From Candidatus Accumulibacter sp. ACC003 (GTDB lineage: Bacteria; Pseudomonadota; Gammaproteobacteria; Burkholderiales; Rhodocyclaceae), in NCBI RefSeq assembly GCF_907163085.1, contig NZ_CAJQTX010000004.1, positions 452,956 through 516,955 of the forward strand: DNA of 64,000 nt, in the 5' to 3' direction. Each line of letters begins with the position of its first letter. Position 1 is the first letter of the stretch. Of the stretch, positions 18,133 through 35,941 are shown piece by piece. The notes under the pieces are model-generated. The model did not search any database. It worked only from the letters and a program-made list of their open reading frames with translations, and was not told the origin of the DNA. Made by a program: the position numbers and the translations under genes.

Positions 18133-19677
18133 CTACCGGTCGTGGTGATTGCCTGGAGCGCGTAGGGGCTGGCGGCTGCTGGTGCCAGCGCCGCCGCCTC
18201 GCTGGCGTTCGAGTCGGCGTTCGATCAGGTCGCACAAGCGGTCGGCGGCGGCTTCGATGCTTGCGGCGTCGGCGGCGGCGAAGCCGAGAACCATCCCCGA
18301 GCGGCTGCGGCCCGGGTCGGCGTAATACATCGACAGCGGTCGCAAGACCATGCCGGCGTCGAGCATCTCCCTGGATAGTGCCTGGTCATCGAAAGCTTCG
18401 TTGAAAAAATAGGGCAGGTGTAGGCCGGCCATGCCGCCGGTGGTCGTCACCAGCCCGCCTAGCCGTGATTCGATCGCCCGGCGCAGGACGTTGCGGCGTT
18501 CCTGATAGATGTTGCGCACGTGCCGAAGATGCGTGCTCAGGTGGCCCTCGTCGATGAAGTCGGCGAGCGTCGCCTGTTCGATCAGGCGTCCTTCCCGGTA
18601 TAGTTCGGCGTTGCCGATGGCAAAGGCGTCGGCCAGGTGTTCAGGGACCACCATGTAGGCCAGACGCAAGCCCGGGAACATGGTCTTGCTGAAGGTTCCC
18701 AGATGAATGACTCGCGCTGACCGCGACTGCCCGAACAGCGAGCCGATGGCATACGGGTGGAAGCGGATCTCGTTGTCGTAGTCGTCCTCGATGATCAGCG
18801 CATCGTGCGCGTCGGCGAGTTCGAGAAGCTGCATTCGCCGGCTCAGCGACATCACCACGCCGGTCGGGTACTGGCTCGAGGGGGTGACAAATATCAGCCG
18901 TGGTGGCGACGCCGGGTCGGGTGGCGGGACGGTGATCCCCTGGTCATCGACCGGAATGGCGTCGATGTGCAGGCCGTTGGCGCGCAGCACATTGCTCGCG
19001 CCCCAGTAACCCGGGTCCTCCATCCACACCCGATCACCGACATCGCAGAGCATTCTTGCACACAAATCAATCGCTTGATGCGAGCCATTGAGGATCAGGA
19101 TCTGCCGCGGCGAACACGACATCATGCGCGCCCCACGCAGGTAGTCGGCGAGCACCGCCTTCAATGGCCCATAGCCGCCGTGGCTGTAGCGCGCGAGGTG
19201 ACGCTGTTCGAAGCGATTGTGTTTGCACAACAGGCGCCGCCAGGTCTTGAACGGAAACAGGCCGACGTCGGGCATGCCGGGCACGAACGCGCCGCCCTGC
19301 AGCGGGCTGCTGCTGGCGTGCCGGGAAATCTCGACACCGCGTCGCGATAAGCCGGAACCCGCTCGCGGCGGGCTAAGGCGCGGCGTGTGGCTGGGCGCGG
19401 CGATCGGCAAGTCTTCCGAGACCAGCGTGCCGGAGCCGCCGCGACTTTGCAGATAGCCCTCGACCAGGAGCTGCTCGTAGACGCGGACCAGCGTACTGCG
19501 GCTCAGACCGAGCGCGGCGGTCAATTGGCGTGTCGGCGGCAGCGGACTGCCCGGTGGCAATTGGCCGTCAAAAATCAGGCGCCGGAGCGTCAGGTACAAG
19601 GCCGTCTGTCTTCGGGAAGCGCTCGGCTCGCTGTCGAAGTGATGCCGAATGAGTTCCATGCAAAGCGACTTGTCCAT
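18133..19677 (-). CDS. MocR/GabR-type regulator (GntR HTH plus aminotransferase domain)
   Basis: In this 514-residue protein residues 20-90 form a GntR winged helix (LPPTRQLTAALGLSRSTLVRVYEQL). The rest is a fold-type I aminotransferase domain with the PLP lysine in GTFSKTMFPGLRL (K331) and the Asp/Tyr-type IIEDDYDNEIRF. MocR proteins sense PLP adducts of amines or amino acids and often activate a divergent aminotransferase gene, exactly the layout here. Paired AATTGGTNT repeats lie 15-47 bp upstream of its start codon. The same repeats occur before the TRAP receptor gene 12 kb away, suggesting a wider regulon. The effector is unknown. Confidence 0.92.
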   Translation of the reverse strand: MDKSLCMELIRHHFDSEPSASRRQTALYLTLRRLIFDGQLPPGSPLPPTRQLTAALGLSRSTLVRVYEQLLVEGYLQSRGGSGTLVSEDLPIAAPSHTPRLSPPRAGSGLSRRGVEISRHASSSPLQGGAFVPGMPDVGLFPFKTWRRLLCKHNRFEQRHLARYSHGGYGPLKAVLADYLRGARMMSCSPRQILILNGSHQAIDLCARMLCDVGDRVWMEDPGYWGASNVLRANGLHIDAIPVDDQGITVPPPDPASPPRLIFVTPSSQYPTGVVMSLSRRMQLLELADAHDALIIEDDYDNEIRFHPYAIGSLFGQSRSARVIHLGTFSKTMFPGLRLAYMVVPEHLADAFAIGNAELYREGRLIEQATLADFIDEGHLSTHLRHVRNIYQERRNVLRRAIESRLGGLVTTTGGMAGLHLPYFFNEAFDDQALSREMLDAGMVLRPLSMYYADPGRSRSGMVLGFAAADAASIEAAADRLCDLIERRLERQRGGGAGTSSRQPLRAPGNHHDR

Positions 19678-19691
19678 CGCGAAGCCGTCCG

Positions 19692-19753
19692 AATTGGTAT
19701 CAGGAGTCTTGCAATAATTGGTCTGATTGTCCGCCGCTCTTCAGCGTACAGTC
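19692..19753 (+). promoter_or_regulatory. predicted MocR-controlled promoter of the aminotransferase operon
   Basis: Direct repeats AATTGGTAT (19692-19700) and AATTGGTCT (19716-19724) are followed after 21 bp by GTACAGTC (19746-19753). TACAGT in it would serve as a -10 box. The same second repeat, 21-bp spacing and GTACAGTC occur at 32015-32052. Transcription would begin about 225 nt before the aminotransferase ATG. The repeats also sit just upstream of the regulator's own start codon, allowing autoregulation. Confidence 0.6.
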
Positions 19754-19983
19754 AACCCACTTTGGTGCATGCCGTCGAAATCTGTTGTCTGTTTGGCGGT
19801 GCCTCAAGTCAACTGGAACTTTGCGGCGCCAGGACCAGCGCCGGGCAGCGAATGCCATCACCTGGGTCGCAGGCTGCGGCGCGCGTGCCGCAGCCCGTGT
19901 CGGGCCCCGAAGTCTCTCGAAGTCGAGCATGGTCGTCGCGGTGGCAGCCACCGACCCGGTCGGCAAACACACAGGAGAAAGCC

Positions 19984-21288
19984 ATGAACGTAGGCAATGA
20001 GATGAGCACGGAAACCAACGCCAGTTTGCTGGCCAGGCGCCAGGCGGCCTTGCCGAGGGGCGTTGGCCAGGCGCACCCGCTGTTTGCCGCGCGCGCCGAA
20101 AACGCCGAAGTGTGGGACGTCGAGGGCCGGCGCTGGATCGACTTTTGCGCCGGCATCGCGGTCGTCAATACCGGCCATTGCCATCCTCGAGTGGTGGCCG
20201 CGGCCAGCGCACAACTGGCGGCGTTTACGCATACCTGCTTCCAGGTCGTCGCCTACGAGTCGTACGTCGAACTGTGCGAGCGCCTCAATGCCGCCGCACC
20301 TGGCGCCACGCCGAAGAAGTCCTTTCTGGTCAATACCGGCGCCGAAGCCGTCGAGAACGCCGTCAAGATCGCCCGCGCGGCGACCGGCCGGAGCGGCCTG
20401 ATCGCCTTCGGCGGTGGCTTCCACGGGCGGACCATGTTCGGTCTGGCGCTGACCGGCAAGGTGGCTCCTTATAAGGTCAAGTTCGGGCCGTATCCGGGCG
20501 GCATATTTCATGTGCCGTTCCCGAATGCGCTGCACGGTGTCTCGGAAGACGACTCCATGGCGGCGATCGAACGACTGTTTGCTTACAGCATCGAAGCGTC
20601 GCAGGTCGGCGCCATCGTCATCGAACCGGTACAGGGCGAGGGCGGCTACCTGCCGGCGCCATTCACTTTCCTGCGCCGCCTGCGGACGCTGTGCGACCAG
20701 CACGGGATCTTGCTGGTTGCCGACGAAGTGCAGAGCGGCATGGCCCGTTGCGGCAAGCTGTTTGCGACCGAGCACTACGACGTCGAGCCCGACATCATCA
20801 CCCTGGCCAAGGGTCTTGGCGGTGGTCTGCCGGTTGCCGCGATCGTCGGTAAGGCGGCGATCATGGACGCCGCCGAAGTCGGTGGTCTCGGTTCCACCTA
20901 CGCCGGCAGCCCGGTGGCTGTCGCCGGCGCGCTGGCGGTCCTCGACGTGATTGAGGAGGAGCAGCTGTGCAGCCGCTCGATGGCGCTCGGCGAGCGCATG
21001 CGTAGCCGCTTCGGCGCAATGCAGAAAAAGTATTCGAGCATCGTCGAAGTACGCGGCCTCGGGGCGATGACGGCGGTGGAGTTCTGCCGCAATGGTGATC
21101 CGCGGCAAGCGGCGGCCGATATGGCCCTGGCCCTGAAGAACGAAGCGGCGCGACGCGGCTTGCTGTTGCTGTTGTGTGGATCAAACGGTAATGTCTTGCG
21201 CGTCATGGTGCCGCTGACCATCCCGGAGGTGCTCCTCGACGAAGGTCTGGAGATTATCGACGCGTCGCTGCAGGCGATCGGCGCCTGA
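19984..21288 (+). CDS. gabT: class III aminotransferase, 4-aminobutyrate aminotransferase-like
   Basis: The 434-residue PLP enzyme starts at MNVGNEMSTETNASLLARRQ after AGGAGAAAGCC. Family motifs are NTGAEAVENAVKIAR, GGGFHGRTMFGLALTGK, the PLP-phosphate and ring contacts LLVADEVQSG, and the lysine in ITLAKGLGGGLP (K276). It resembles GabT, which moves the amino group of GABA or another omega-amino acid to 2-oxoglutarate. No succinate-semialdehyde dehydrogenase gene follows, so the natural substrate may be another omega-amine. The divergent MocR gene is the probable activator. Confidence 0.9.
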   Translation: MNVGNEMSTETNASLLARRQAALPRGVGQAHPLFAARAENAEVWDVEGRRWIDFCAGIAVVNTGHCHPRVVAAASAQLAAFTHTCFQVVAYESYVELCERLNAAAPGATPKKSFLVNTGAEAVENAVKIARAATGRSGLIAFGGGFHGRTMFGLALTGKVAPYKVKFGPYPGGIFHVPFPNALHGVSEDDSMAAIERLFAYSIEASQVGAIVIEPVQGEGGYLPAPFTFLRRLRTLCDQHGILLVADEVQSGMARCGKLFATEHYDVEPDIITLAKGLGGGLPVAAIVGKAAIMDAAEVGGLGSTYAGSPVAVAGALAVLDVIEEEQLCSRSMALGERMRSRFGAMQKKYSSIVEVRGLGAMTAVEFCRNGDPRQAAADMALALKNEAARRGLLLLLCGSNGNVLRVMVPLTIPEVLLDEGLEIIDASLQAIGA

Positions 21289-21651
21289 ACGCCGCGCGGC
21301 GGCGACGGCCTGATCGGCCAAGCGCTGTTGGCACTAGCCCAACAGTATCGCCCCTTGGTACGCCTTGCCGTGGTGCTCGCCGCGACGACGCGGCAATTCC
21401 GGGAATGGCCGAGAAGCAGACGGCGTCGCCGAATTGTCGTCGCGCGATTACTGTGATGTAGTCGTTTGGCGTGCACAGGGCGCCCGCCTTGAAGAGTCCC
21501 GGGCGGGCGGGTCCGTTGCAGCAGTCGAGTTCGCGGCGTCTCGACACGTCACGAGCGTTGACGTAATCTGCTCAGGTTCGCGGCGTCGGAACTTGAGGGC
21601 AATTCCAATAATCACCGTACGCTCACTAGCAGCGGCAGGAGAAATCACTTC
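21289..21651. other. non-coding gap before the amidase gene
   Basis: I see no gene in these 363 bp. A weak hairpin (CTGTTGG at 21325-21331, CCAACAG at 21339-21345) follows the aminotransferase stop and may be an attenuator. The end of the gap supplies the AGGAG box for the amidase. The paired AATTGGT repeats seen at the other two promoters are absent here. Confidence 0.5.
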
Positions 21652-22653
21652 ATGGTTCCGTTTTCAATTGCTGGCCTTCAGATGAATATCTCGATGGAGC
21701 ACGAGAACATCACCGCGATGGGGCACAAGCTGGACGTCCTCATGGCCCGTTTTCCATGGGTGCAGATGGTCGTCTTCAGCGAGCTGGCGCCTTTCGGACC
21801 GGCGCCGTATCACGCGCAGCCGACCGGCGGGCCAGCCGAGCAGATTTTTTGCCAGATGGCCGCCAAGCATGGCCTGTGGTTGCTGCCGGGGTCGATGTTC
21901 GAACGCATTGGCGATGATATTTTCAATACGACGCCGGTGATCGATCCGAACGGCAAGGTGATCGCCCGTTACCGCAAGATGTTCCCTTTCCTGCCCTATG
22001 AAATGGGTATCAAGCCCGGCACCGAGTTCTGTGTGTTTGACGTCCCCCACATCGGCCGTTTCGGGGTTTCCATTTGCTACGACATGTGGTTTCCCGAAAC
22101 TACCCGGACGCTGGTCTCGATGGGCGCGGAATGCATTCTCCATCCGACGATGACCGACACCATCGACCGCGATGTCGAGCTGCCGATAGCCCGCGCCAAC
22201 GCGACCATCAATCAGTGCTATTTTTTCGATGTGAATGGCGTCGGCGACTGCGGCACAGGCCGCTCGGTGATCGTCGGTCCTTCCGGCTACGTCATCCATG
22301 AAGCGGGCGGTGGCGAAGAAATCATGCCGGTGGAAATCGATCTGTCGCGCGTTCGTCGCGAGCGCGAGGTGGGAATCCGTGGCCTGGGGCAAACGCTCAA
22401 GAGTTTCCGTGACCGCCCGATCGAGTTTCCGGTTTATCAGAAACACCTGGGTCATGAGGGCGACTATCTGAATAGTCTCGGGCCCTTGGTCAAGCCGACG
22501 CGCGGATCGCGTTCCGAGCCAGTTGCGCTGCCTGCTGGCGTCGTCGCCGGACCGGACGGTTCGACCGTCTACCTCACCGATCTGCAAGCGGACACCGGTT
22601 TCTCTGGTGAATCGCTGGAGAGTGTTGCACCGTACTACCATCATCGCTCGTGA
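21652..22653 (+). CDS. nitrilase superfamily (carbon-nitrogen) hydrolase
   Basis: The 333-residue protein has the Glu-Lys-Cys triad of the nitrilase superfamily: E44 in FSELAPFGP, K109 in RYRKMFPFLPYE and C142 in ISICYDMWFPE. The family cleaves amides, carbamoyl groups or nitriles, or transfers acyl groups. It lacks an obvious secretion signal. The last about 50 residues are a family-specific extension. The stop overlaps a possible GTG start of the next gene, so this gene and the ATP-grasp gene are almost certainly co-transcribed. The substrate is unknown; an amide or N-carbamoyl compound is the likely class. Confidence 0.88.
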   Translation: MVPFSIAGLQMNISMEHENITAMGHKLDVLMARFPWVQMVVFSELAPFGPAPYHAQPTGGPAEQIFCQMAAKHGLWLLPGSMFERIGDDIFNTTPVIDPNGKVIARYRKMFPFLPYEMGIKPGTEFCVFDVPHIGRFGVSICYDMWFPETTRTLVSMGAECILHPTMTDTIDRDVELPIARANATINQCYFFDVNGVGDCGTGRSVIVGPSGYVIHEAGGGEEIMPVEIDLSRVRREREVGIRGLGQTLKSFRDRPIEFPVYQKHLGHEGDYLNSLGPLVKPTRGSRSEPVALPAGVVAGPDGSTVYLTDLQADTGFSGESLESVAPYYHHRS

Positions 22654-22814
22654 GTGAGCCGATCTCCGGAAGTCAGGCGGGTGACAGGATGAATGCCGCG
22701 CTGCTCGCCGGTTCAGCTTTGCTGGCCGTCTTCGGGATCGCTATTTTCGCGATCCAGCGAGGCCGCAAGAGGATGCAAGCCCAAGAAGAAACAAACCCAC
22801 AGAGGAGACAGGAA

Positions 22815-24290
22815 ATGGAAATGACCCAGCCGCCGTTGTCCACGATCACCAGCATGTCCGACTTGCGCTTGTTCTTCCATCGCAACAAGCGTCCGATCTA
22901 CTTCATCAGCGCTACCAACTTCAATCTGGCGGGCATGGACGAAAGGGTGCCGCACTTCAAGCACATCAACTACATCGACTGCTACGACGGCCGCCATCCG
23001 AATGTCTTCGTTCCCAAGGAGCAGCCGCATGAGGAGTTCGAGGGTATCGAGGACATCAACAACTATCTGTTGCAGAACAAGGAAGTCATCGACTACATCA
23101 AGGGACGCGGCGGCGATCCGGTCGCCGTGTTCCTGATGTTCGACGAGAAGACCGAGGAGTTGTGCAAGGAACTGGGCATCGAGCTGTGGTTCCCGCCAGC
23201 ATCCTTGCGCACGCGTTGCGACAACAAGATGGAAACGGTACGCATCGGCAACAAGGCCAACGTGCCATCGGTGCCGAACGTCTTGGCCAAGGTCGAAAGC
23301 TACGAGCAACTGATCAAGCTGACCGAGGAAAATGGTCTTGGCAGCGACCTGGTGATTCAGTCGGCTTTCGGCGACTCGGGTCACACGACTTTCTTTATCT
23401 CGAATGACGAAGAGTGGAAGAAGTACGCTGACGAGATCGTCAAGGATCCCGAGGTCAAGGTGATGAAGCGGATTAACTGCCGCGGCGGCACGCTGGAAGC
23501 CTGCGTCACGCATTGCGGGACGGTGGTTGGCCCCTTGCTGACCGAAATCGTCGGCGCCAAGGAACTGACGCCATACAAGGGCGGCTGGTGCGGCAACGAG
23601 GTCTTCCCCGGAGCTTTTCCGGAAAAGGCGCGGATTACCGCGCGCGACTACGCCTATGCCTTCGGCAACCAATTGCTCGAGGAGGGTTATCGCGGTTACT
23701 TCGACCTCGACTTTCTGGTCGACGAGGACAGCGAAGAGGTTTATCTGGGCGAACTCAACCCGCGCGTCTGCGGTGCCAGCCCGATGACCAACCACGCGGC
23801 TTTCGCCTATGCCGACGCGCCGCTGTTCTTCTTCCACCTGCTGGAGTTCAGCGGTGCGGACTTCAAGCTCGACGTAGCCGCAATGAACGAACGCTGGAAA
23901 AATCCGAAGTACATCGACACCTGGAGCCAACTGGTGATGAAGTACACCGACGAAGAGGTGGATATCGTCGAGGAGGCGCCGCAATCGGGGATCTACCGCA
24001 TGGACGACGCCGGCAACGTCAGCTATCACCGCTTTGATTATCACCGCCTGGCGGTCGAAGGCGAGAACGAGGCGTTCTGGTTGCGCATCACGGGCCCCGG
24101 TGATTACCGCTATGAAGGCGCCGATCTGGGGATTTTGATCACCCGCGGCCGCTCGATGACCGAGGAGTTCAAGCTCAACCCGCGGGCCTTTAACTGGATC
24201 AAGGGCATTCAAAGCTTCTACAAGGGCCGACCGCTGGATACCGGCATTCAGCAACCGGCGCCGTCGGCCGGCGCGTTCAAGATCCTCTGA
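22815..24290 (+). CDS. ATP-grasp ligase, biotin-carboxylase-like
   Basis: A 491-residue protein starts at MEMTQPPLSTITSMSDL behind a strong GAGGAG box. The ATP-grasp core includes SAFGDSGHTTFFIS, MKRINCRGGTLEACVT and the metal-binding end VYLGELNPRVCGASPMTNH. Such enzymes join a carboxylate, as an acyl phosphate, to an amine or other nucleophile. Database labels of the biotin carboxylase type are common for this family, but no biotin carrier gene is nearby. The frame is open upstream to 22650. That extension encodes a membrane-anchor-like stretch (AALLAGSALLAVFGIAIFAI) from an ATG at 22689, so a longer anchored form is possible. Confidence 0.82.
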   Translation: MEMTQPPLSTITSMSDLRLFFHRNKRPIYFISATNFNLAGMDERVPHFKHINYIDCYDGRHPNVFVPKEQPHEEFEGIEDINNYLLQNKEVIDYIKGRGGDPVAVFLMFDEKTEELCKELGIELWFPPASLRTRCDNKMETVRIGNKANVPSVPNVLAKVESYEQLIKLTEENGLGSDLVIQSAFGDSGHTTFFISNDEEWKKYADEIVKDPEVKVMKRINCRGGTLEACVTHCGTVVGPLLTEIVGAKELTPYKGGWCGNEVFPGAFPEKARITARDYAYAFGNQLLEEGYRGYFDLDFLVDEDSEEVYLGELNPRVCGASPMTNHAAFAYADAPLFFFHLLEFSGADFKLDVAAMNERWKNPKYIDTWSQLVMKYTDEEVDIVEEAPQSGIYRMDDAGNVSYHRFDYHRLAVEGENEAFWLRITGPGDYRYEGADLGILITRGRSMTEEFKLNPRAFNWIKGIQSFYKGRPLDTGIQQPAPSAGAFKIL

Positions 24291-24306
24291 TCGTCGGCCG
24301 AGCCAG

Positions 24307-25311
24307 ATGGCGCTCATTCAGTCCCAGTCGCTGCTGTTCCGGGCGATCGAGGAAGAACGACCGGGCACCATCTGGCAAGCGCTGTTCGCCGAGTTCTGGC
24401 CGTCGTATCGCCGTTGGTACCTGCAAGGCGGCAATGCGGCGCGCCCCTACTACCTGCCTTGCGTACGGGCGCTGCGCAAGCACATGCCGGAGTTGCTGCC
24501 AACCTACGAAAAACTCGCCGAACTCGTTGGCGGCGGCGATCTGGAAGCCCGCTTTCTGTCGCTGTTCTGCCCGCCACCGTACGTCACCGCGTGTTCGCAG
24601 GTCGCCCTGACCGGAACTCGGCCGCTGCTGCTGCGCAACTACGACTATCCGCCGCAGTTATGTGAAGGCGTAATCCTGAAGACGGCATGGAACGGCCGCC
24701 AGGTGATCGGCGTCAGCGACTGCGTCTGGGGCCTACTCGACGGCATCAACGACGACGGCCTGGCAGTATCCTTGTCGTTCGGTGGCCGCCTGGATGTCGG
24801 CGAAGGCTTCGGCGTGCCGTTGCTCCTGCGCTACGTGCTGGAAACCTGCCGCCGAACGGCTGAGGCCAGTGCGGCTCTGGCGCGGGTGCCGGTGCACATG
24901 AGTTACAACGTGACGGTGCTCGATTGTCACGGCGACTTTGCGACGGTCTATCTGGCGCCGGGCAAGAAAGGCGATATCCAGCGCATCGCGGCGGCGACCA
25001 ACCACCAGCAGAAGGTCGAATGGCAGCAACACGCGCGTGCGACGTCGACGGTCGAGCGCCTGCGGCTGCTACGGCTGATGCTCGACGACAGCGCCATCAC
25101 CAGCGAGGCGCTGATCGCCGCCTTCCTGCAAGCACCGATCTACTCGAACGCGTTTGCCCGTGGTCTTGGCACGCTTTACTCGGCCGCCTACTGGCCGAGC
25201 GAAGGACGTGCCGATTTTCTCTGGCCAGGCCTTGCCTGGTCGCAGTCGTTTACCGATTTCACGGTTGGCTCGCGGCTGATCGAGTTTGGCAGTTCCCCCA
25301 CCACCGAATAA
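24307..25311 (+). CDS. C45 family Ntn hydrolase (acyl-coenzyme A:6-aminopenicillanate acyltransferase-like)
   Basis: In this 334-residue protein the probable self-cleavage site and nucleophile are Ala95-Cys96 in VTACSQVAL, followed by LLLRNYDYPP, which is the C45 signature. Family members are made as inactive precursors, cut themselves before the Cys and then transfer or hydrolyse acyl groups on amines. Later conserved pieces are MSYNVTVLDCHGDFATV and AATNHQQ. It sits 16 bp after the ATP-grasp gene in the same orientation. Paired with an amide-forming ATP-grasp enzyme, it could remove or exchange an acyl group on an amine intermediate. Confidence 0.85.
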   Translation: MALIQSQSLLFRAIEEERPGTIWQALFAEFWPSYRRWYLQGGNAARPYYLPCVRALRKHMPELLPTYEKLAELVGGGDLEARFLSLFCPPPYVTACSQVALTGTRPLLLRNYDYPPQLCEGVILKTAWNGRQVIGVSDCVWGLLDGINDDGLAVSLSFGGRLDVGEGFGVPLLLRYVLETCRRTAEASAALARVPVHMSYNVTVLDCHGDFATVYLAPGKKGDIQRIAAATNHQQKVEWQQHARATSTVERLRLLRLMLDDSAITSEALIAAFLQAPIYSNAFARGLGTLYSAAYWPSEGRADFLWPGLAWSQSFTDFTVGSRLIEFGSSPTTE

Positions 25312-25350
25312 CGATACGCCAGGCATTGACCTGCGTGAGGAGACAAGAAG

Positions 25351-28113: not shown

Positions 28114-28188
28114 CAACGATCGGCGCGGCTCGCTGCTTTTTGAGTTGCGCCGACGCGTGCACTTGCTGGCAGAAAAGGAGCACTATCG

Positions 28189-28971
28189 ATGCAGACCGAA
28201 ACGATCATTTATCGATCGGCCGAGGGGATTGCAGAAATCCGTTTGAACCGACCCGAGCGGCTCAACGCGGTAACCCAGCAGCTCTACGACGAAGTCAACG
28301 CCGCGCTGGACGTCGCTGAGGCCGACAGCGACGTGCGCGTCGTGCTGTTGACCGGCGAGGGCAGGGCCTTCTGCGTCGGCGCTGATCTCAAAGCCCACAA
28401 GGCCGGCCGAACGGCCTTCGCCAGACGCCAGTATCTGTGTGCCGAGCAGAGAGTCTGCAAACGATTGCTGTTGTTGTCGAAGCCGGTGGTGGCCGCGGTC
28501 AATGGCTTCGCGCTCGGCGCCGGTGCCGAAATGGCGATCGCTGCGGACTTCATCGTGATCGCCGAGAGCGCGCAGATCGGTCTGCCCGAGGTGAGCATCG
28601 GCACATTTCTTGGTGGTGGCGTGACCTATCTGCTGCCGCGCCTGGTCGGCTTGGCCAAGGCGCGCGAACTGGTCTTTCTCGGCGAGCGAATCAAGGGCGA
28701 AGAGGCGGTACGTATCGGGTTGGCCAATCGTCTGCTGCCCGACGAGGGTTTTCTCGACGCGGCGCGTGAATTCGCCGCACGGATTGCCGGCAAAGCGCCC
28801 CTGTCGATGCAGATGGCCAAGGAGCAGCTGAACATGGCTGCTGAACGTACTCTTGACGCGGCATTTGCTGCCGAACTCGAAGGAATGACCTTCGCCGCAA
28901 CGACGCAGGACTGGCAGGAGGGAATCGACGCCTTTGCCGAAAAACGCCTGCCGGTTTTCAAGGGCTGCTGA
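28189..28971 (+). CDS. enoyl-CoA hydratase/isomerase family protein
   Basis: This 260-residue crotonase-fold protein has oxyanion-hole regions GEGRAFCVGADLKA and ALGAGAEMAIAADFI, and the active-site segment LPEVSIGTFLGGGVTYLLPR. The start follows AAAAGGAGCACTATCG. The next gene begins one base after its stop. The family also includes isomerases, dehalogenases and thioester hydrolases, so hydration of an enoyl-CoA is only the default assumption. Its companions suggest it acts on a CoA thioester made by the adjacent acyl-CoA synthetase. Confidence 0.88.
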   Translation: MQTETIIYRSAEGIAEIRLNRPERLNAVTQQLYDEVNAALDVAEADSDVRVVLLTGEGRAFCVGADLKAHKAGRTAFARRQYLCAEQRVCKRLLLLSKPVVAAVNGFALGAGAEMAIAADFIVIAESAQIGLPEVSIGTFLGGGVTYLLPRLVGLAKARELVFLGERIKGEEAVRIGLANRLLPDEGFLDAAREFAARIAGKAPLSMQMAKEQLNMAAERTLDAAFAAELEGMTFAATTQDWQEGIDAFAEKRLPVFKGC

Positions 28972-28972
28972 G

Positions 28973-31162
28973 ATGAAAGTGCTGGCTAGCGCAACGCAGC
29001 GGAGTCCGCTGCACGATTTTCTCGCACCCGATTCGATTGCCATCGTCGGTGCTTCGGCCGACCCCAGCAAGCGTGGCTACAAGGCGATGGTCGGCCTGAT
29101 CAAGGACGGCTACGCGGGCAAAATCTACCCGATCAATCCCAAGGTGGACAGGGTTCTCGGCGTCAGGACGTACGCGTCGCTGGCCGACATTCCGGGCACC
29201 GCCGACCTGGCGCTGATCTGCACTCCCGCCGCCAGCGTGCCGGGCCTGCTCGTCGAGTGCGGCAAGAAAGGCGTCAAGGGCGCGGTGATCCTGGCCAGTG
29301 GCTTTCGCGAAACGGGTCGCCCGGAAGGCATCAAGCTGGAGCAGGAGATGCTGGCCGCTGCGCGCCAGAACGGCGTACGGGTCATTGGCCCGAACACCTC
29401 CGGGATGTTCAACCTGCACAAGAAAGTCAACTTGCTGGCGCTGAACAACGTCAAGGCCGGTGGCATCGGACTGATCTCGCAATCGGGCAACATGCTGCTG
29501 TCGCTGGTGCTCGAAGCGCAGCGCAACGGTCACGTCGGCTTCAGCACCTACGCCGGGCCGGGCAACCAGGCCGATATCGGCTTCAACGACTACCTGCGCT
29601 ACCTTGGCGAGGATCCGCACACGCGTGTTGCGACGCTGTACGTCGAAGGTTTTCGTGACGGCCGTCGCTTCCTCGACGCGGCGCGCGAGATCACCGCGTT
29701 GAAGCCGGTGGTGGTGTACAAGTCGGGTTCGACCGAGGCCGGTCAGAAAGCCGCCAGTTCGCACACCGGCGCGCTGGCCGGCAGCTACGCGATGACCCTT
29801 GACCTGTTGCGTCAGGTCGGCGTCAGTGTGGTGCAGAACTCAGACGAGATCCTGCCCGTCGCCGAGGGCCTGGCACTGCTGCAGAAGGCACGCGGCAAGC
29901 GTGTTGCCGTCGTCGCCGATGGCGGCGGTCAGGCGACGATCGCCTCCGACCGGCTGAGCGAAGCGGGGCTGGTGCTGGCCGAGTTGAGCGCCACGACGCG
30001 CCGGCGTCTGGGCGAAATCCTTTTTCCGCAGGCGTCGCTGGTCAATCCGGTAGACGTCGCCGGCAGCAGCGATGCCAACCCCGCGCTGCTCGCCGACTGC
30101 CTGGAAATCGTCGCCGATGACGACGGCGTCGACAGCATTTTCCTGGTCGGCATGTTTGGTGGCTATCACACGCGCTTTGCCGAAGACCTGCTCGGCGGCG
30201 AGATGCGCGGCGCCGAATCGATGATCGAACTGGCGCGTCGGACCGACAAGCCACTGGTGGTCTACAGCCTCTATGCGCCTGTCAATCCACCGGCCCTGCG
30301 TCGGCTGCACGAAGCCGGCCTGCCGGTCTACAGTTCGATCGAGCACGCGGTGCGCGTCCTGGCGGCGCTTGGCGAGCGCGGTAGCTATCTGGCGGGCCGC
30401 GCCGGCGAGCAGCCGGCGCTGGCGCTTGCGCCCGACGGCGATGCCGAGCGCGCGTTCGCCACGGCACAAGCCGAGGGACGCGACCTTTTCGAGTTCGAGG
30501 CCAAGGACTTGCTGCGCGCGCATGGCGTCGCCGTGCCGCTAGAGCGGCTGGCCGCCTCGGCCGGCGACTTGACGGCGATTGCCGAGCACTTCGGCGAGCA
30601 GCCGCTGGCGATGAAAGTGGTGTCCCGGCATATTCTCCACAAGTCCGATGCCGGTGGTGTCAAGCTCAATGTGCAAGGTGAAGCGCAAATGCGCGTCGCC
30701 TTCGACGAAATCCTCGACTCCTGCCGCGCTTACGACGCGCAGGCGCTGATCACCGGCGTTCTCGTCGCACCGATGGCGCGCAAAGGAACCGAGGTGATCA
30801 TCGGCGTCGTTCGTGATCCGATATTCGGACCGGTGCTGATGTTCGGGCTGGGCGGTATTTTTGTCGAGATCCTCGAGGACGTCGTCTTCCGTGCCATACC
30901 GCTGTCCTACGGCGACGCGTGCTCGATGCTCGACCAGATCAAGTCGCGCAAGATCCTGGGAGGCGTGCGTGGTGAGGCGGCAGTGGACCGGCAAGCGCTG
31001 ATCGATCTGCTGTTGAAAGTTTCGAGCATTGTCCAGGCCTACCCGTCACTTGCCGAGCTTGACCTCAACCCGGTCATTGCCTTGGCCGACGGCTACGCCG
31101 TCGTCGATGCCCGGATCATCGTCGAGCGGGTGGATGCTGACCGGCCGGAGGAAACACTATGA
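28973..31162 (+). CDS. NDP-forming acyl-CoA synthetase (ADP-forming type)
   Basis: The 729-residue single-chain enzyme starts at MKVLASATQRSPLHDF. The N-terminal CoA-binding Rossmann domain (IAIVGASADPSKRGYKAMVGL) is followed by succinyl-CoA-ligase-like domains (IGLISQSGNMLLSL, VVVYKSGSTEAGQKAASSHTGAL) and a C-terminal ATP-grasp domain (MKVVSRHILHKSDAGGV, LDLNPVI). Such enzymes interconvert an acid, CoA and ATP with acyl-CoA, ADP and phosphate. It lies between two crotonase genes with a 4-base overlap to the second one. The acid activated is not predictable from sequence. A branched or dicarboxylic acid from amine breakdown is possible. Confidence 0.9.
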   Translation: MKVLASATQRSPLHDFLAPDSIAIVGASADPSKRGYKAMVGLIKDGYAGKIYPINPKVDRVLGVRTYASLADIPGTADLALICTPAASVPGLLVECGKKGVKGAVILASGFRETGRPEGIKLEQEMLAAARQNGVRVIGPNTSGMFNLHKKVNLLALNNVKAGGIGLISQSGNMLLSLVLEAQRNGHVGFSTYAGPGNQADIGFNDYLRYLGEDPHTRVATLYVEGFRDGRRFLDAAREITALKPVVVYKSGSTEAGQKAASSHTGALAGSYAMTLDLLRQVGVSVVQNSDEILPVAEGLALLQKARGKRVAVVADGGGQATIASDRLSEAGLVLAELSATTRRRLGEILFPQASLVNPVDVAGSSDANPALLADCLEIVADDDGVDSIFLVGMFGGYHTRFAEDLLGGEMRGAESMIELARRTDKPLVVYSLYAPVNPPALRRLHEAGLPVYSSIEHAVRVLAALGERGSYLAGRAGEQPALALAPDGDAERAFATAQAEGRDLFEFEAKDLLRAHGVAVPLERLAASAGDLTAIAEHFGEQPLAMKVVSRHILHKSDAGGVKLNVQGEAQMRVAFDEILDSCRAYDAQALITGVLVAPMARKGTEVIIGVVRDPIFGPVLMFGLGGIFVEILEDVVFRAIPLSYGDACSMLDQIKSRKILGGVRGEAAVDRQALIDLLLKVSSIVQAYPSLAELDLNPVIALADGYAVVDARIIVERVDADRPEETL

Positions 31163-31947
31163 AGATGCCGACGCTTAGCGACGCACTGCTGGAGGTGGAC
31201 CAGCGGGTGGCGATGCTGACGCTCAATCGCGACGATGTGCGCAACGCGCTGACCGGTACGCGCCTGATCGACGACATCGTCGCTGTCGCCGAGTGGGTCA
31301 ATAGCTGTGACGAGGTTTCGGTACTGTTGATCACCGGCGCTGGCGCGGCATTCTCGGCGGGTGGCAACGTCAAGGACATGGCCAAGCGCAGCGGTGATTT
31401 TGCCGGCGACGTCGCCGAGGTCGCCGAGCGTTATCGGCGCGGCATTCAGCGCATCCCGCTGGCGCTGAACGCCGTCGAAGTTCCGGTGATCGCCGCGGTC
31501 AACGGCGCGGCCATTGGTGCGGGCTTCGACCTCGCCAACATGGCCGATATCCGTCTCGCCTCAAGCCGCGCGAAGTTCGGTGAAACCTTCCTCAACCTGG
31601 GGATCATCCCCGGCGATGGCGGCGCCTGGTTCATGCAGCGCTTGATCGGTTACCAGCAGGCCTTCGAGTTGACGCTGACCGGACGCATCGTCACCGCCGA
31701 CGAGGCGAAAGCCCTGGGTATCGTGCTCGAGGTGCTCGAACCCGAGAATTTGTTGCCAAGAGCGCGCGAACTCGCTGCGCGGATTGCCGCCCAACCCGCG
31801 AAGGCGCTGCGCTTGACCAAGCGCCTGATGAAAATGGCGCAACGCATGGAGTTAAAGGATTTTCTCGACCTGAGCGCGGCGTTTCAGGGCATGTGTCACA
31901 ACGAAACGGAGCACCTGGCGGCGGTTCGGGCGATGCTGAAGGCATAA
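31159..31947 (+). CDS. enoyl-CoA hydratase/isomerase family protein
   Basis: The 262-residue crotonase-fold protein has GAGAAFSAGGNVKDMA, AIGAGFDLANMADIRLA and GETFLNLGIIPGDGGAWFM, with the Glu and Asp positions expected of a hydratase. Its ATG overlaps the stop of the acyl-CoA synthetase, so translation is coupled. It differs clearly from the other crotonase gene at 28189, so the two probably do successive or different steps. The operon seems to end here, as a 341-bp gap with a new promoter follows. Confidence 0.9.
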   Translation: MKMPTLSDALLEVDQRVAMLTLNRDDVRNALTGTRLIDDIVAVAEWVNSCDEVSVLLITGAGAAFSAGGNVKDMAKRSGDFAGDVAEVAERYRRGIQRIPLALNAVEVPVIAAVNGAAIGAGFDLANMADIRLASSRAKFGETFLNLGIIPGDGGAWFMQRLIGYQQAFELTLTGRIVTADEAKALGIVLEVLEPENLLPRARELAARIAAQPAKALRLTKRLMKMAQRMELKDFLDLSAAFQGMCHNETEHLAAVRAMLKA

Positions 31948-31991
31948 TCTGCCGGCGGCCATCTGCGGAAAACCGAGGGGAGAGCGCCTGA

Positions 31992-32052
31992 AATTGGTCT
32001 TTGCCATTTTTTTGAATTGGTCTTCGTGTGCGCCGATTTTGTGTGTACAGTC
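31992..32052 (+). promoter_or_regulatory. predicted MocR-controlled promoter of the TRAP operon
   Basis: Direct repeats AATTGGTCT at 31992-32000 and 32015-32023 are followed after 21 bp by GTACAGTC (32045-32052). The second repeat, spacing, GTACAGTC and several bases between them (TGTNCGCCG) match the aminotransferase promoter at 19716-19753. The predicted leader to the receptor ATG is about 230 nt. The rest of the gap 31948-32288 shows no gene. Confidence 0.6.
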
Positions 32053-32288
32053 CATCATGTTGGCATTTTGTCGGCGGCAGTTGGTGAAAGCCTCCTGCGA
32101 GTTGGTGTTGGCCAATGGCGCAGATAGCGCTGTAACGGGCTGTTGCAAACCTACCCGGGCAGTATTGGACATCGATGGGAAATGCCTGCGCAGACCTTTC
32201 GCACACCTTCCGACGATGAGCTTGGTACCCCCAGGTAGTAGCCGCATAGTTCGTTCTCATTGATAGATCACAAGGAAGGAGACTCAAC

Positions 32289-33254
32289 ATGAAAAAACTC
32301 ACAACTCTGGCCGCCGCTCTGGCGGTCTGCGCCGGCCTCGGTAGCCCGGCGGCTTTTGCGCAGCAGAAATTCGTCACCATCGGTACCGGTGGCGTGACCG
32401 GCGTGTACTACGCGGCGGGTGGCGCGATCTGTCGCTTGATGAACAAGGAAAAGAAAACGCACGGTATTCGCTGTTCGGTCGAAAGTACGGGTGGCTCGGT
32501 TTACAACGTCAATACCATCAAGGCCGGCGAGCTTGACTTCGGCGTGGCCCAGTCCGACGTGGCGTACAACGCGCTGAAGGGAGAAAACCAGTTCAAGGGT
32601 GCCGCTTTCAGCGAATTGCGTTCGGTCTTTTCGATTCATCCCGAGCCGCTGGTCGTGCTCGCCCGCGAGGACGCCAAGGTTACGTCGCTGCTCGACTTCA
32701 AGGGCAAGCGCTTCAACATCGGCAATCCGGGTTCCGGGCAACGCGCGACGATGGATATCCTGCTTCCTGCCATGGGCATGAAGACCAGTGATTTCTCGCT
32801 GGTTTCGGAAATGAAGGCCGACGAACACGGCGCCGCGCTGTGCGACAACAAGATCGACGGCTTCGCCTACGTTGTCGGTAACCCTTCGGCGAACATCCAG
32901 GACCCGACCACGACGTGCCACGCGCAACTGGTCAATATCATCGGCCCGGCGGTCGATAAACTGGTCAAGATGTATCCGTACTACGCCGCGGTGACGATCC
33001 CCGGCGGCATGTACGCGCACAACCCGAACCCGACCAACACCTTCGGCGTCGTTGCCGCCTTCGTCTCGTCGTCGAAGGTCTCGAACGACGTCGTCTATGC
33101 GATGGTGAAAGCGGTCTTCGACAACCTGGATGACTTCAAGAAGCTGCACCCGGCTTTTGCGCACCTCGATCCGAAAGAGATGATCAAGAACGGCCTGTCG
33201 GCACCACTGCATGACGGCGCCGTCAAGTACTACAAAGAGAAGGGCTGGATGTAA
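32289..33254 (+). CDS. TAXI family TRAP transporter solute receptor
   Basis: The 321-residue periplasmic binding protein has a signal peptide ([24 protein letters not shown]). The mature start is TAXI-like ([21 protein letters not shown]), and the family pattern [33 protein letters not shown] is present across several segments. TAXI receptors are reported to bind amino acids, C4-dicarboxylates or similar small acids. The start is preceded by AAGGAAGGAG. A 22-bp palindrome separates it from the membrane component, which would allow more receptor than permease to be made. Confidence 0.94.
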
Positions 33255-33311
33255 GTCGGTCGAAAGAACTCCGGGATCGGCGTGCTACCAGCCTTTCCCG
33301 GCGGACCTGCT

Positions 33312-33333
33312 GACGGCCCCGATCGGGGCCGTC
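33312..33333 (+). terminator. intercistronic palindrome between TRAP receptor and permease
   Basis: This is a perfect 22-bp inverted repeat, with arms GACGGCCCCGA and TCGGGGCCGTC back to back, 29 bp before the permease start. It is followed by TGTCCTTG rather than a long T-run. It is most likely a partial terminator or mRNA-stabilising hairpin that sets the receptor-to-permease ratio. Confidence 0.6.
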
Positions 33334-33361
33334 TGTCCTTGAAGTCTGTGGAGGTACGCAT

Positions 33362-35941
33362 ATGGCTGAAAAAGAAACGGCTCCCGTCCTGACCGACGAG
33401 CAGCTCAAACAACTCGTTGCCGAAGCCGACACCGGTGGTCGCAAGCCGACCGGTGCGGTCGCCAAGCTGATCCTGTATACGGCATTGGCCTGGTCGCTGT
33501 TTCAACTATGGATCGCCTCGCCGCTGCCGTATTCGTTCGGCATCCTGGTGCTCAATGACACCGAATCGCGTTCGGTCCACCTCGCCTTCGCGATGTTCCT
33601 CGCCTTTCTCGCCTACCCGGCGTTCAAACATTCGCCGCGTGATCACGTGCCGATCCTGGACTGGGTGCTGGCCCTGGTCGGCGTCTTCTGCGCGTCGTAT
33701 CTGTTCGTCTTCTACTCGGAGTTGTCCACGCGGCCGGGGCAACCGACGACGCTAGACCTGGTCGCCTCGGTGGGGGGGATCATCCTGCTGCTCGAAGCGG
33801 CACGGCGTGCGCTCGGCCTGCCGATGGTCATTCTGGCGACGATCTTCATCGGTTATATCTTCCTTGGCCCCTACATGCCGGACATGATCGCCCACAAGGG
33901 CGCTTCGCTCGGCAAGGGCATGTCGCACCTGTGGCTGAGCACCGAGGGCGTGTTCGGCGTCGCGCTCGGCGTCTCGTCGGGTTTCATCTTCCTCTTCGTT
34001 CTTTTTGGTTCGCTGCTCGAAACGGCCGGCGCCGGCAACTACTTCATCAAGTCGGCGATCTCGCTGCTCGGCCACCTGCGTGGTGGCCCGGCCAAGGCCG
34101 CGGTGGTCGCGTCGGCGTGTACCGGCCTGATCTCCGGGTCGTCGATCGCCAACGTGGTGACCACCGGAACGTTCACCATTCCGCTGATGAAGCGCGTCGG
34201 CTATCGTGCCGACAAAGCGGCTGCGGTCGAGGTCGCCGCGTCGGTCGACGGGCAGATCATGCCGCCGGTGATGGGCGCCGCGGCCTTCCTGATGGTCGAA
34301 TACGTCGGCATTCCGTACACGCAGGTGCTCAAGCACGCGATCCTGCCGGCGTTGATTTCGTACATCGCGCTGTTCTACATCGTGCACCTCGAGGCGATGA
34401 AGGCCGATATCCGCGGTATCCCGCACGTCCATGAAGCCTCGTTCCGTGACCGCGCGCTGTCTTTCCTGATGACCGTTTCCGGAATCATCATCCTCGCCGG
34501 CATCGTCTACTACGGCTTCGGCTGGCTCAAGGACGTCTTTGGTGACGCGTCGATATACATCGTCGGCGTCGTCATGCTCGCCACCTACGTCGGCCTGCTG
34601 AAGTTCGGTACGCGTTTTCCAGAGTTGCACATGGACGATCCGAACAAGCCGTTCGAGCACCTGCCGGATGCCGGTCCGACACTGAAATCGGGCCTGCACT
34701 TCCTGCTGCCGGTGGTGGTGCTGATCTGGAACCTGATGGTCGAGGAACTTTCGCCGGCGCTATCGGCGTTCTGGGCGACGGTTTTCCTGATGCTCATCCT
34801 AGTCACGCAAAGGCCAATCATCGCCCACTTCCGCCAGCAGGGCGACCCTGGCGCGGCCGTTCGCCGGGGCTTCCATGATCTGTTTGAGGGGCTGGTGACC
34901 GGTGCGCGCAACATGATCGGTATCGGTATCGCGACCGCGGCGGCGGGCATCATCGTCGGGACAGTGACGCTGACGGGTATCGGCCTGGTGATGAGCGAAC
35001 TGGTCGAACTGATCTCGGGTGGTAACCTGATGGTCATGCTCGTGATGGTGGCCGTGATTTGCCTGATCCTCGGTATGGGCCTGCCGACGACGGCCAATTA
35101 CATCGTGGTATCGACGCTGATGGCGCCGGTGGTCGTCGAACTCGGTGCGCAGAGCGGGCTGCTGGTGCCGCTGATCGCCGTGCATCTGTTCGTCTTCTAC
35201 TTCGGGCTGATGGCCGACGTCACGCCACCGGTCGGCCTGGCGTCGTACGCGGCGGCCGGCATCGCGCGCGTCGATCCGATCAAGGTCGGCGTCACGGCTT
35301 TCGGCTACAGCATCCGTACGGCGATCCTGCCGTTCATGTTCATCTTCAACACGCAGCTGCTGCTGATCGGTATCGACAGTATCTGGCACCTGGTGCTGAC
35401 GATATTCACTGCGATCGTCGCCAACCTTGTCTTTGCCGCCGCGACGCAGGGCTGGTTCATGGCCCGCAACCGCTGGTGGGAGGCTGTGGTCCTGCTACTC
35501 GTGACCTTGACGCTGTTTCGTCCGGGCTTCTGGATGGACATGATCCATCCCCCTTACGACAAGATATCAGCCGACCAGATCATGGAGGTCGTCGAGCGGG
35601 CGCCCGCCGACGATCGGCTACGGATCTGGATCGAGGGCGAGGACATCAACGGCAAGGAGGTCCACAAGGGCGTGTTGTTGCCGCTGGGCGAACCCGCGCC
35701 AGCGCTCAAGCGCCTCAACGCGGCCGGTCTGAGCCTGATGGCGAGCGGAGACAGCGTCGACATCATGGGCGTCAAGTTTGGCAGCCGAGCAGCGAAACTG
35801 GGGATCGAGCAGGGCTTCAAGATCACCTCGATCGAAGTGCTTGCTGACCGGCCGGCCAAGGAATGGTTCTTCATTCCCGCTCTCGGTCTGCTTGGCCTGA
35901 TTATCGTCATCCAGCGGCGGCGCGCCGGCGTCGCCACCTAA
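33362..35941 (+). CDS. TRAP transporter fused 4TM/12TM permease (DctQM) with DUF3394 tail
   Basis: The 859-residue membrane protein fuses the small (DctQ) and large (DctM) TRAP subunits, the usual arrangement with TAXI receptors. Helices begin near residue 30 (LILYTALAWSLFQLWIA). DctM signatures such as SGSSIANVVTTGTFTIPLMK, VDGQIMPPVMGAAAFLMVEY and LGMGLPTTANYIV are evident. The last about 180 residues (from FRPGFWMDMIHPPYDK) form a DUF3394-type, PDZ-like domain ending in a membrane helix. It drives sodium-coupled uptake of the receptor's ligand. A strong terminator follows. Confidence 0.94.
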   Translation: MAEKETAPVLTDEQLKQLVAEADTGGRKPTGAVAKLILYTALAWSLFQLWIASPLPYSFGILVLNDTESRSVHLAFAMFLAFLAYPAFKHSPRDHVPILDWVLALVGVFCASYLFVFYSELSTRPGQPTTLDLVASVGGIILLLEAARRALGLPMVILATIFIGYIFLGPYMPDMIAHKGASLGKGMSHLWLSTEGVFGVALGVSSGFIFLFVLFGSLLETAGAGNYFIKSAISLLGHLRGGPAKAAVVASACTGLISGSSIANVVTTGTFTIPLMKRVGYRADKAAAVEVAASVDGQIMPPVMGAAAFLMVEYVGIPYTQVLKHAILPALISYIALFYIVHLEAMKADIRGIPHVHEASFRDRALSFLMTVSGIIILAGIVYYGFGWLKDVFGDASIYIVGVVMLATYVGLLKFGTRFPELHMDDPNKPFEHLPDAGPTLKSGLHFLLPVVVLIWNLMVEELSPALSAFWATVFLMLILVTQRPIIAHFRQQGDPGAAVRRGFHDLFEGLVTGARNMIGIGIATAAAGIIVGTVTLTGIGLVMSELVELISGGNLMVMLVMVAVICLILGMGLPTTANYIVVSTLMAPVVVELGAQSGLLVPLIAVHLFVFYFGLMADVTPPVGLASYAAAGIARVDPIKVGVTAFGYSIRTAILPFMFIFNTQLLLIGIDSIWHLVLTIFTAIVANLVFAAATQGWFMARNRWWEAVVLLLVTLTLFRPGFWMDMIHPPYDKISADQIMEVVERAPADDRLRIWIEGEDINGKEVHKGVLLPLGEPAPALKRLNAAGLSLMASGDSVDIMGVKFGSRAAKLGIEQGFKITSIEVLADRPAKEWFFIPALGLLGLIIVIQRRRAGVAT

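Follow-up and report, generated by a model that had tools for sequence, protein, structure and literature searches.

A co-inherited gene unit beside gabT in Candidatus Accumulibacter and its possible role in the masking of basic amino acids

Do the genes clustered at positions 18133-35941 of a 64,000-nucleotide stretch of Candidatus Accumulibacter sp. ACC003 (contig NZ_CAJQTX010000004.1; the whole stretch is hereafter the window) form a single metabolic pathway? The original prediction had read them as twelve collinear genes for an undescribed, MocR-controlled amine/amide pathway with its own TRAP importer and an acyl-coenzyme A (CoA) as end product. On the present analysis the gene list stands and the one-pathway reading falls, a narrower and better supported unit taking its place. 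The set looks like two modules rather than one pathway. Module 1 would consist of gabT and a tight operon for a nitrilase, an ATP-grasp ligase, a C45 hydrolase and a long decarboxylase of the ornithine/lysine/arginine (OKR) type; module 2 would consist of a crotonase, an acyl-CoA synthetase and a second crotonase, together with a TAXI-TRAP transporter. The linkage of module 1 extends well beyond close relatives and beyond the genus, and the module is likely to be a unit for the catabolism of basic amino acids towards γ-aminobutyrate (GABA) or a similar ω-amino acid.

Scans with Pfam and NCBIfam models and reading of the translations recovered all the families that had been named, in 11 open reading frames (ORFs) instead of twelve; the claimed collinearity fails at MocR, which is divergent. 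The family-library scan covered ten of the ORFs, the identity of the TRAP permease coming from its translation and place only. The features are as follows.

18133-19677, minus strand: MocR-type regulator with GntR and aminotransferase-like domains (PF00392, PF00155), divergent from gabT
19692-19722, plus strand: candidate MocR operator, two copies of AATTGGT in direct repeat at a 24-base spacing, sole match in 64 kilobases (kb)
19984-21288, plus strand: gabT, class III aminotransferase of the GABA transaminase type (TIGR00700); start inferred, 20002 also possible
21652-22653, plus strand: Nit, nitrilase-superfamily amidase (PF00795)
22650-24290, plus strand: ATP-grasp protein with an N-terminal hydrophobic segment, read as an amide ligase (NF005096, PRK06524 'biotin carboxylase')
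24307-25311, plus strand: C45 autoproteolytic N-terminal nucleophile hydrolase/acyltransferase (NF040521, 170 bits, cut-off 85)
25351-28113, plus strand: long OKR-type decarboxylase dependent on pyridoxal phosphate (PLP), 920 amino acids (PF01276)
28189-28971, plus strand: module 2 crotonase ECH1 (PF00378)
28970-31162, plus strand: module 2 NDP-forming acyl-CoA synthetase (PF13380, PF13607, PF13549); start inferred
31159-31947, plus strand: module 2 crotonase ECH2 (PF00378; NF006699, 319 bits, cut-off 354)
32289-33254, plus strand: TAXI solute receptor (TIGR02122)
33362-35941, plus strand: fused TRAP permease, from its translation and its position after TAXI; a homologue stands behind TAXI at other loci

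Spacing in the operon is tight: the nitrilase and ATP-grasp genes overlap by 4 bases, and gaps of 16 and then 39 bases lead to the C45 and decarboxylase genes. Wider gaps lie between gabT and the nitrilase gene (363 bases), between the decarboxylase and the first crotonase (75), between the second crotonase and TAXI (341) and between TAXI and TRAP (107). A terminator-like site behind the decarboxylase gene (28121-28135) was not used, as 13 such sites were found against 11.8 expected, and no RNA family reached its gathering score in 14000-40000.

A search with the ATP-grasp protein over one genome per species gave at least 568 relatives, of which the best 80 loci were returned with their surroundings; this sample leans to close homologues. 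In the counts of neighbouring genes, matches below 33% identity were dropped. By their titles the 80 loci belong to alpha-, beta- and gammaproteobacteria, plus one record titled Oceanobacillus sp. HTM 045 (L099), whose cassette is much like the alphaproteobacterial ones and which is perhaps misassigned. The C45 gene lies within 1.5 kb of the ligase gene in 79 of the 80 loci, the long decarboxylase within 4.5 kb in 66 and the nitrilase within 6 kb in 65. Where at least 4.5 kb is available on both sides (59 loci), the counts are 59 for C45, 50 for the decarboxylase, 54 for the nitrilase and 23 for TAXI. The original prediction had made its case depend on the ATP-grasp, C45 and decarboxylase genes occurring together outside close relatives, and this they do. 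The ligase gene itself is uncommon: wider draws found it in 11 genomes out of 398 for the phylum, 10 out of 369 for the class and 9 out of 337 for the class of G434, the centre genome being included each time. Within the genus, 14 of 28 genomes hold it; 13 of these and none of the 14 others hold the long decarboxylase, an agreement of 27/28, the exception (G003) being a 72% complete genome in which the contig ends within the ligase gene. Distances within the four families correlate across non-redundant loci (Mantel r 0.81-0.90, 46-70 loci), a figure to which shared organismal ancestry contributes. At four loci (L034, L051, L053, L077), MocR, gabT and nitrilase genes of the window kind (73-89% identical) adjoin a divergent decarboxylase-ligase-C45 block (56-57, 68-69 and 45-51% identical, respectively) in inverted orientation. 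With native versions of MocR, gabT and the nitrilase gene next to a divergent block, it seems that the decarboxylase, ligase and C45 genes move together. Both kinds of block are held by the Accumulibacter genomes G014, G018 and G022.

The residues that we take to be catalytic are intact in the partners of the ligase. Cys96, the processing-site nucleophile of the C45 hydrolase, is kept in 38/38 sequences, Glu44, Lys109, Glu117 and Cys142 of the nitrilase are invariant in 27/27, and Lys571, His570, Asp494 and His406 at the PLP site of the decarboxylase are kept in 91/91. The predicted C45 model (predicted local distance difference test, pLDDT, 93.3) has isopenicillin N acyltransferase as its best solved fold (template-modelling score 0.69-0.70 by query length); the fold is shared at only 13-14% identity with this acyltransferase, which removes an aminoadipyl amide. 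The best NCBIfam match of the nitrilase is AguB, far under its cut-off (71 versus 410 bits); a route of the AguB/agmatine-deiminase kind was rejected on this score, AguA not having been searched for. The decarboxylase belongs to the same long OKR family as the solved Rv2531c (9N0N, 9N0O, 9N0P), which it matches at 829 bits over nearly its full length; the activity of Rv2531c is not known according to the available part of a review (PMC12910592). In Accumulibacter SBR_S the decarboxylase is split into two overlapping matches (L058:12524-15369, L048:4984-7747), perhaps by a frameshift. Long OKR decarboxylases with no ligase or C45 gene found nearby occur at L172 and L173, in Labrys and Bradyrhizobium (second copy).

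The ATP-grasp protein passes the cut-off of the 'biotin carboxylase' model NF005096 (763 versus 684 bits). Its predicted model (pLDDT 81.9) gives a broad superfamily match only, at 12-16% identity among the matches listed, the top folds of which are biotin carboxylases, PurK and PurD. In a modest match (probability 60%), EMNTRIQVE of E. coli AccC aligns with ELNPRVCGA, the Gln-Val-Glu that follows ExNxR in biotin carboxylase being replaced by Cys-Gly-Ala; across 44 sequences Gly316 is invariant and Ala317 at least 90% conserved. We take the Gln-Val-Glu of AccC to act at the bicarbonate site, its glutamate presumably being the bicarbonate base, and this base is absent from the ATP-grasp protein because alanine stands in its place. 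None of the ten ORFs scanned encodes a carrier protein or carboxyltransferase partner, and the eleventh reads as the TRAP permease. The comparison with AccC demoted the biotin-carboxylase reading to a low rival. ATP-grasp enzymes that mask amines have precedents in LysX/ArgX and in BtrJ of butirosin biosynthesis. The hydrophobic N-terminal segment (22650-22830), a possible membrane anchor, is shared by the Accumulibacter type-A and the Denitromonas/Zoogloeaceae loci looked at and is absent from the proteins of L072 and L112.

How might these enzymes work together? Beyond the operon, its co-inheritance, its neighbours and the intact catalytic residues, all of which were computed, we infer a direction, a substrate, a mask, an order of steps and a nitrilase step as follows. 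A basic diamino acid would serve as substrate; the likeliest one is ornithine, possibly derived from arginine, and in certain relatives 2,4-diaminobutyrate, a product of ectoine, may take its place. The long decarboxylase would remove the α-carboxyl. The ATP-grasp ligase would put an acyl mask, perhaps γ-glutamyl, on the distal amine, thereby preventing cyclisation of the aldehyde, and the C45 hydrolase would take the mask off; at a guess, the nitrilase would hydrolyse an amide intermediate or by-product. The resulting ω-amino acid, GABA in the case of ornithine, would be passed on to succinate by GabT and a semialdehyde dehydrogenase. The masking logic put forward earlier is plausible, given that the ligase and the amidohydrolase almost never part; such near-inseparability suits a mask-and-unmask pair like PuuA/PuuD. 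That the four genes form one catabolic operon working with GabT, masking included, is nevertheless a tentative reading to which we give rather less than an even chance, and we are more doubtful still that it represents an undescribed, widespread amine-masking route in which the distal amine of basic amino acids is shielded by the ligase and freed again by the C45 hydrolase. No description of this set of genes was found in a literature that included few subscription journals and no preprints, which agrees with the earlier remark that no known pathway with such a set could be named.

A close parallel to the proposed logic is the Puu pathway (E. coli puuADRCBE), where a ligase masks the amine, oxidation follows, an amidohydrolase unmasks and GABA goes to a transaminase. 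The proteins differ: PuuA is glutamine-synthetase-like whereas the module 1 ligase is of the ATP-grasp type, PuuD is of the class I glutamine-amidotransferase type whereas the module 1 hydrolase is a C45 protein, PuuB is absent from the operon, and a decarboxylase and a nitrilase are added. Orthology with Puu was rejected, no PuuA or PuuD domain being found among the ten ORFs scanned. PuuR-like regulators are near in 20 of 106 loci; the one tested falls under the PuuR cut-off (136 versus 211 bits). A genome search with PuuD proved of little use, because 32 of 44 genomes match (E 1e-15) with or without the ligase; the Accumulibacter matches are partial, at 31-39% identity.

Clues to the substrate come from the neighbours of the cassette. 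Nine of the 59 well-flanked loci are without the decarboxylase. In three loci, of Labrys (L080), Shinella (L082) and Thiofilum (L088), genes for a racemase with an arginase-like domain, DadA, RidA, a ketoarginine decarboxylase, a ureohydrolase and an aldehyde dehydrogenase surround the ligase and C45 genes, and a Shinella plasmid (L134) shows the same set; there, the racemase, a relative of ornithine racemase by its 393 bits against a cut-off of 480, is fused to an arginase-family domain (L134:17788-19575). According to the part of the source available, Sinorhizobium IlvB1, a homologue of the ketoarginine decarboxylase AruI, is sevenfold more active on 5-amino-2-oxopentanoate, the keto acid of ornithine (PMC7268258). 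Given this preference, ornithine could be common to the decarboxylase and ketoarginine variants. The arginine transamination/ketoarginine network described there (AruI, Sinorhizobium CATCH-N) shares with module 1 the flow from arginine or ornithine to GABA and succinate, and with the Shinella-type variant the ketoarginine decarboxylase and ureohydrolase; in the same portion of that paper no ligase/C45 pair is seen, and most module 1 loci use a PLP decarboxylase instead. A search of 14 whole genomes found 11 without the long decarboxylase (six with ordinary OKR enzymes only, at 35-39% identity, and five with nothing) and three with it; two of these were taken as carriers, and the Labrys copy lies elsewhere, with no ligase gene in the 18 kb around it.

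At L042 the cassette is flanked by genes for an Lrp-type regulator and a semialdehyde dehydrogenase, and the same cluster contains doeA, doeB and eutB, which score over the NCBI cut-offs; L041, of the same family, has the same ectoine-cluster order by similarity. This placement inside an ectoine-degradation cluster suggests that the role of the cassette in these genomes is related to diaminobutyrate. Elsewhere the cassette has an agmatinase-like neighbour (L095, L140 and L151) or one of the histone-deacetylase family that may be an acetylpolyamine amidohydrolase (L044 and L079). On Rhizobium and Sinorhizobium plasmids, genes for a peptide-type ABC importer and an amidase-signature protein come after those for decarboxylase, ligase and C45; on one plasmid of Rhizobium leguminosarum, nifHDKEN adjoins the decarboxylase-ligase-C45 genes on the opposite strand (L135:4036-14486), which suggests a role in symbiosis. 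Together, the gabT and regulator neighbours, the ketoarginine variants and the ectoine cluster point to basic diamino acids and GABA.

The gene next to the operon fits such a product, the window aminotransferase exceeding the NCBI cut-off for GABA transaminase (TIGR00700, 541 versus 507 bits). Its divergent neighbour MocR is under the cut-off of the rhizopine MocR model (446 versus 650 bits) and over that of PdxR (370 versus 320); no GABA-regulator model fits it over cut-off, GabR scoring 249 against 600 bits. A second MocR copy, 54% identical, is found elsewhere in the genome, and 30 of the 80 loci have a MocR or PuuR-like gene no more than 10 kb from that of the ligase. The AATTGGT direct repeat lies in the divergent MocR/gabT promoter, with 0.01 matches expected in the 64 kb. 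Of 19 MocR-divergent regions, 15 contain its ATTGG core with the 24-base spacing unchanged and two with a spacing of 23 bases, and the core was not found in those of L057 and L065; L050/L054 and L048/L058 are same-genome pairs, so that two of the 19 regions are second copies. The repeat supports MocR control of gabT through a predicted operator. Divergence of MocR from gabT and a direct-repeat operator are shared with the MocR/GabR-type regulons of PMC5320631, in the available part of which the four-gene operon is not seen. The proposed MocR control thus gains from the conserved repeat as far as gabT is concerned and not for the other genes; for the core operon it is unproven because the nitrilase gene starts 363 bases after gabT and the site is unique in the window. 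At L055, L057, L060, L061 and L063, a PuuR-like gene stands just ahead of the nitrilase gene.

Several observations weigh against a masking route that leads to GABA. Only 25 of the 80 loci have a GabT-like gene within 10 kb of that for the ligase, and some of these neighbours are more distant class III aminotransferases, three that were tested belonging to PRK07483. Of the nine well-flanked loci that lack the decarboxylase, six lack the ketoarginine set as well; these are four from Aquitalea, which have just nitrilase, ligase and C45 genes beside kdp genes, L059 and Cupriavidus L079, which has another thiamine enzyme. Why the ketoarginine variant itself should require a mask is not obvious, and the operon contains no amine oxidase. 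Several carriers hold a PuuD-like protein (34-47% identity), for which reason module 1 is not a simple stand-in for Puu. Finally, deletion of Rv2531c in M. tuberculosis was without effect on growth on arginine, according to the part of PMC4569260 available.

What, then, of module 2? Its synthetase gene lies near that of the ligase in 6 of 106 loci, all from Accumulibacter, the crotonase-synthetase-crotonase trio adjoining module 1 in no other genus among these loci, and within Accumulibacter it occurs in exactly those 8 of 28 genomes that have the type-A ligase. In two genomes from other genera of the same family, G036 and G042, the ligase is absent and the crotonase-synthetase-crotonase trio occurs without module 1, in G042 directly behind TAXI and TRAP. 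An acyl-CoA end of module 1 is not supported, because module 2 stands without it in these two genomes. About 2 kb after the trio of G036 lie genes for a 2-hydroxyacyl-CoA lyase (949 versus 600 bits) and an AMP-forming acyl-CoA ligase (L191:12155-15483), a possible clue to module 2.

The claim that the pathway has its own importer holds in part: TAXI lies within 10 kb of the ligase gene in 24 of the 80 loci, a frequent partner and not a constant one. The window receptor matches the glutamate receptor VcGluP (8S4J) at 357 bits and the closer solved receptor 9OZ4 at 475. Of the 13 ligand residues of VcGluP, ten are kept, including the two critical ones, Tyr45 and Gln93, whose equivalents are invariant in 31/31 TAXI sequences of the loci; the differences are S40G, D157Q and M201V (numbering offset inferred). 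With these ten residues kept, the likely ligand of the receptor is glutamate or a close analogue. Outside Accumulibacter, the receptors that accompany module 1 share 49-57% identity with that of the window where their length allows a comparison, and the TAXI-TRAP pair found with module 1 in Rhodobacteraceae is a more distant one. The receptor of G042 reaches 74% identity and has all 13 pocket residues in common with that of the window; in Denitromonas L063 a TAXI fragment with 75% identity across 67 residues comes directly after gabT, where the contig ends. TAXI was rejected as proof of one pathway, a closer receptor being found in G042, which lacks module 1; the Denitromonas fragment speaks against the split.

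If the masking scheme is compared with its alternatives, the one with the best claim keeps the module and its end and dispenses with a mask: the C45 hydrolase and nitrilase would open an imported amide or peptide-like conjugate of a basic amino acid, and the ligase would recycle or detoxify the released acid or amine. The peptide-type ABC importers and amidase-signature gene behind C45 in Rhizobium and Sinorhizobium, and a peptide-type ABC importer behind C45 in Roseobacter ponti, speak for this explanation. An ATP-using ligase is, however, hard to place in a purely hydrolytic route, the transporter types differ between loci and many loci show none nearby, and we regard it as unlikely. Alternatively, the unit could be biosynthetic, joining a decarboxylase-made diamine to an acid as a stored solute or signal that C45 and nitrilase would turn over. 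At L036, L037, L046 and L047 the decarboxylase, ligase and C45 genes were found with no nitrilase or gabT nearby, and the cassette near nif genes on a symbiosis plasmid would suit such a function; the catabolic neighbours at many other loci (gabT, ectoine and arginine genes, importers) make it quite improbable.

Slightly less can be said for the original view, that all the genes form one pathway ending in an acyl-CoA by way of synthetase and crotonases. It is favoured by the presence of the synthetase in all eight type-A Accumulibacter genomes and by the genes lying on one strand. A protein of the HpaB family, the superfamily of 4-hydroxybutyryl-CoA dehydratase, is moreover found elsewhere in 5 of 6 genomes searched, but it matches only HpaB-1, and far under the cut-off (133 versus 480 bits). 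The restriction of the synthetase beside module 1 to six Accumulibacter loci, and the free-standing trio of G036 and G042, behind TAXI-TRAP in the latter, leave this view with a poor chance. A link between the modules could run from GABA through 4-hydroxybutyryl-CoA to crotonyl-CoA. Least probable of all, and by our estimate very improbable, is an ATP-grasp enzyme that uses bicarbonate to N-carboxylate an amine or guanidine as PurK does. The score over the PRK06524 cut-off and the biotin carboxylase, PurK and PurD folds among the matches listed would agree with it; the alanine at the presumed position of the bicarbonate base, in that modest alignment, and the failure to find a carrier or transferase gene among the 11 ORFs do not.

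If the masking scheme is correct, module 1 would represent a second, non-homologous invention of amine masking, and a family that counts at least 568 proteins in a single genome collection would be mislabelled as 'biotin carboxylase'. The family of long OKR decarboxylases would acquire a metabolic role, and three poorly understood protein families would together acquire a testable one. It is tempting to imagine a masking route that is plugged into ornithine/arginine, GABA and ectoine degradation and that stands beside nif genes on a rhizobial plasmid. Module 1 touches nitrogen-fixing rhizobia, marine Rhodobacteraceae and wastewater Accumulibacter, and its four co-inherited genes make an obvious subject for biochemical work even should the idea of a mask fail.

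Outside the cluster, on the far side of MocR, the translation of an ORF at 14500-16236 (minus strand) resembles, as read by eye, a fusion of a protein phosphatase with a Ser/Thr protein kinase, and beside it, at 16302-17156, lies an ORF that by the same reading is formate/nitrite-transporter-like.

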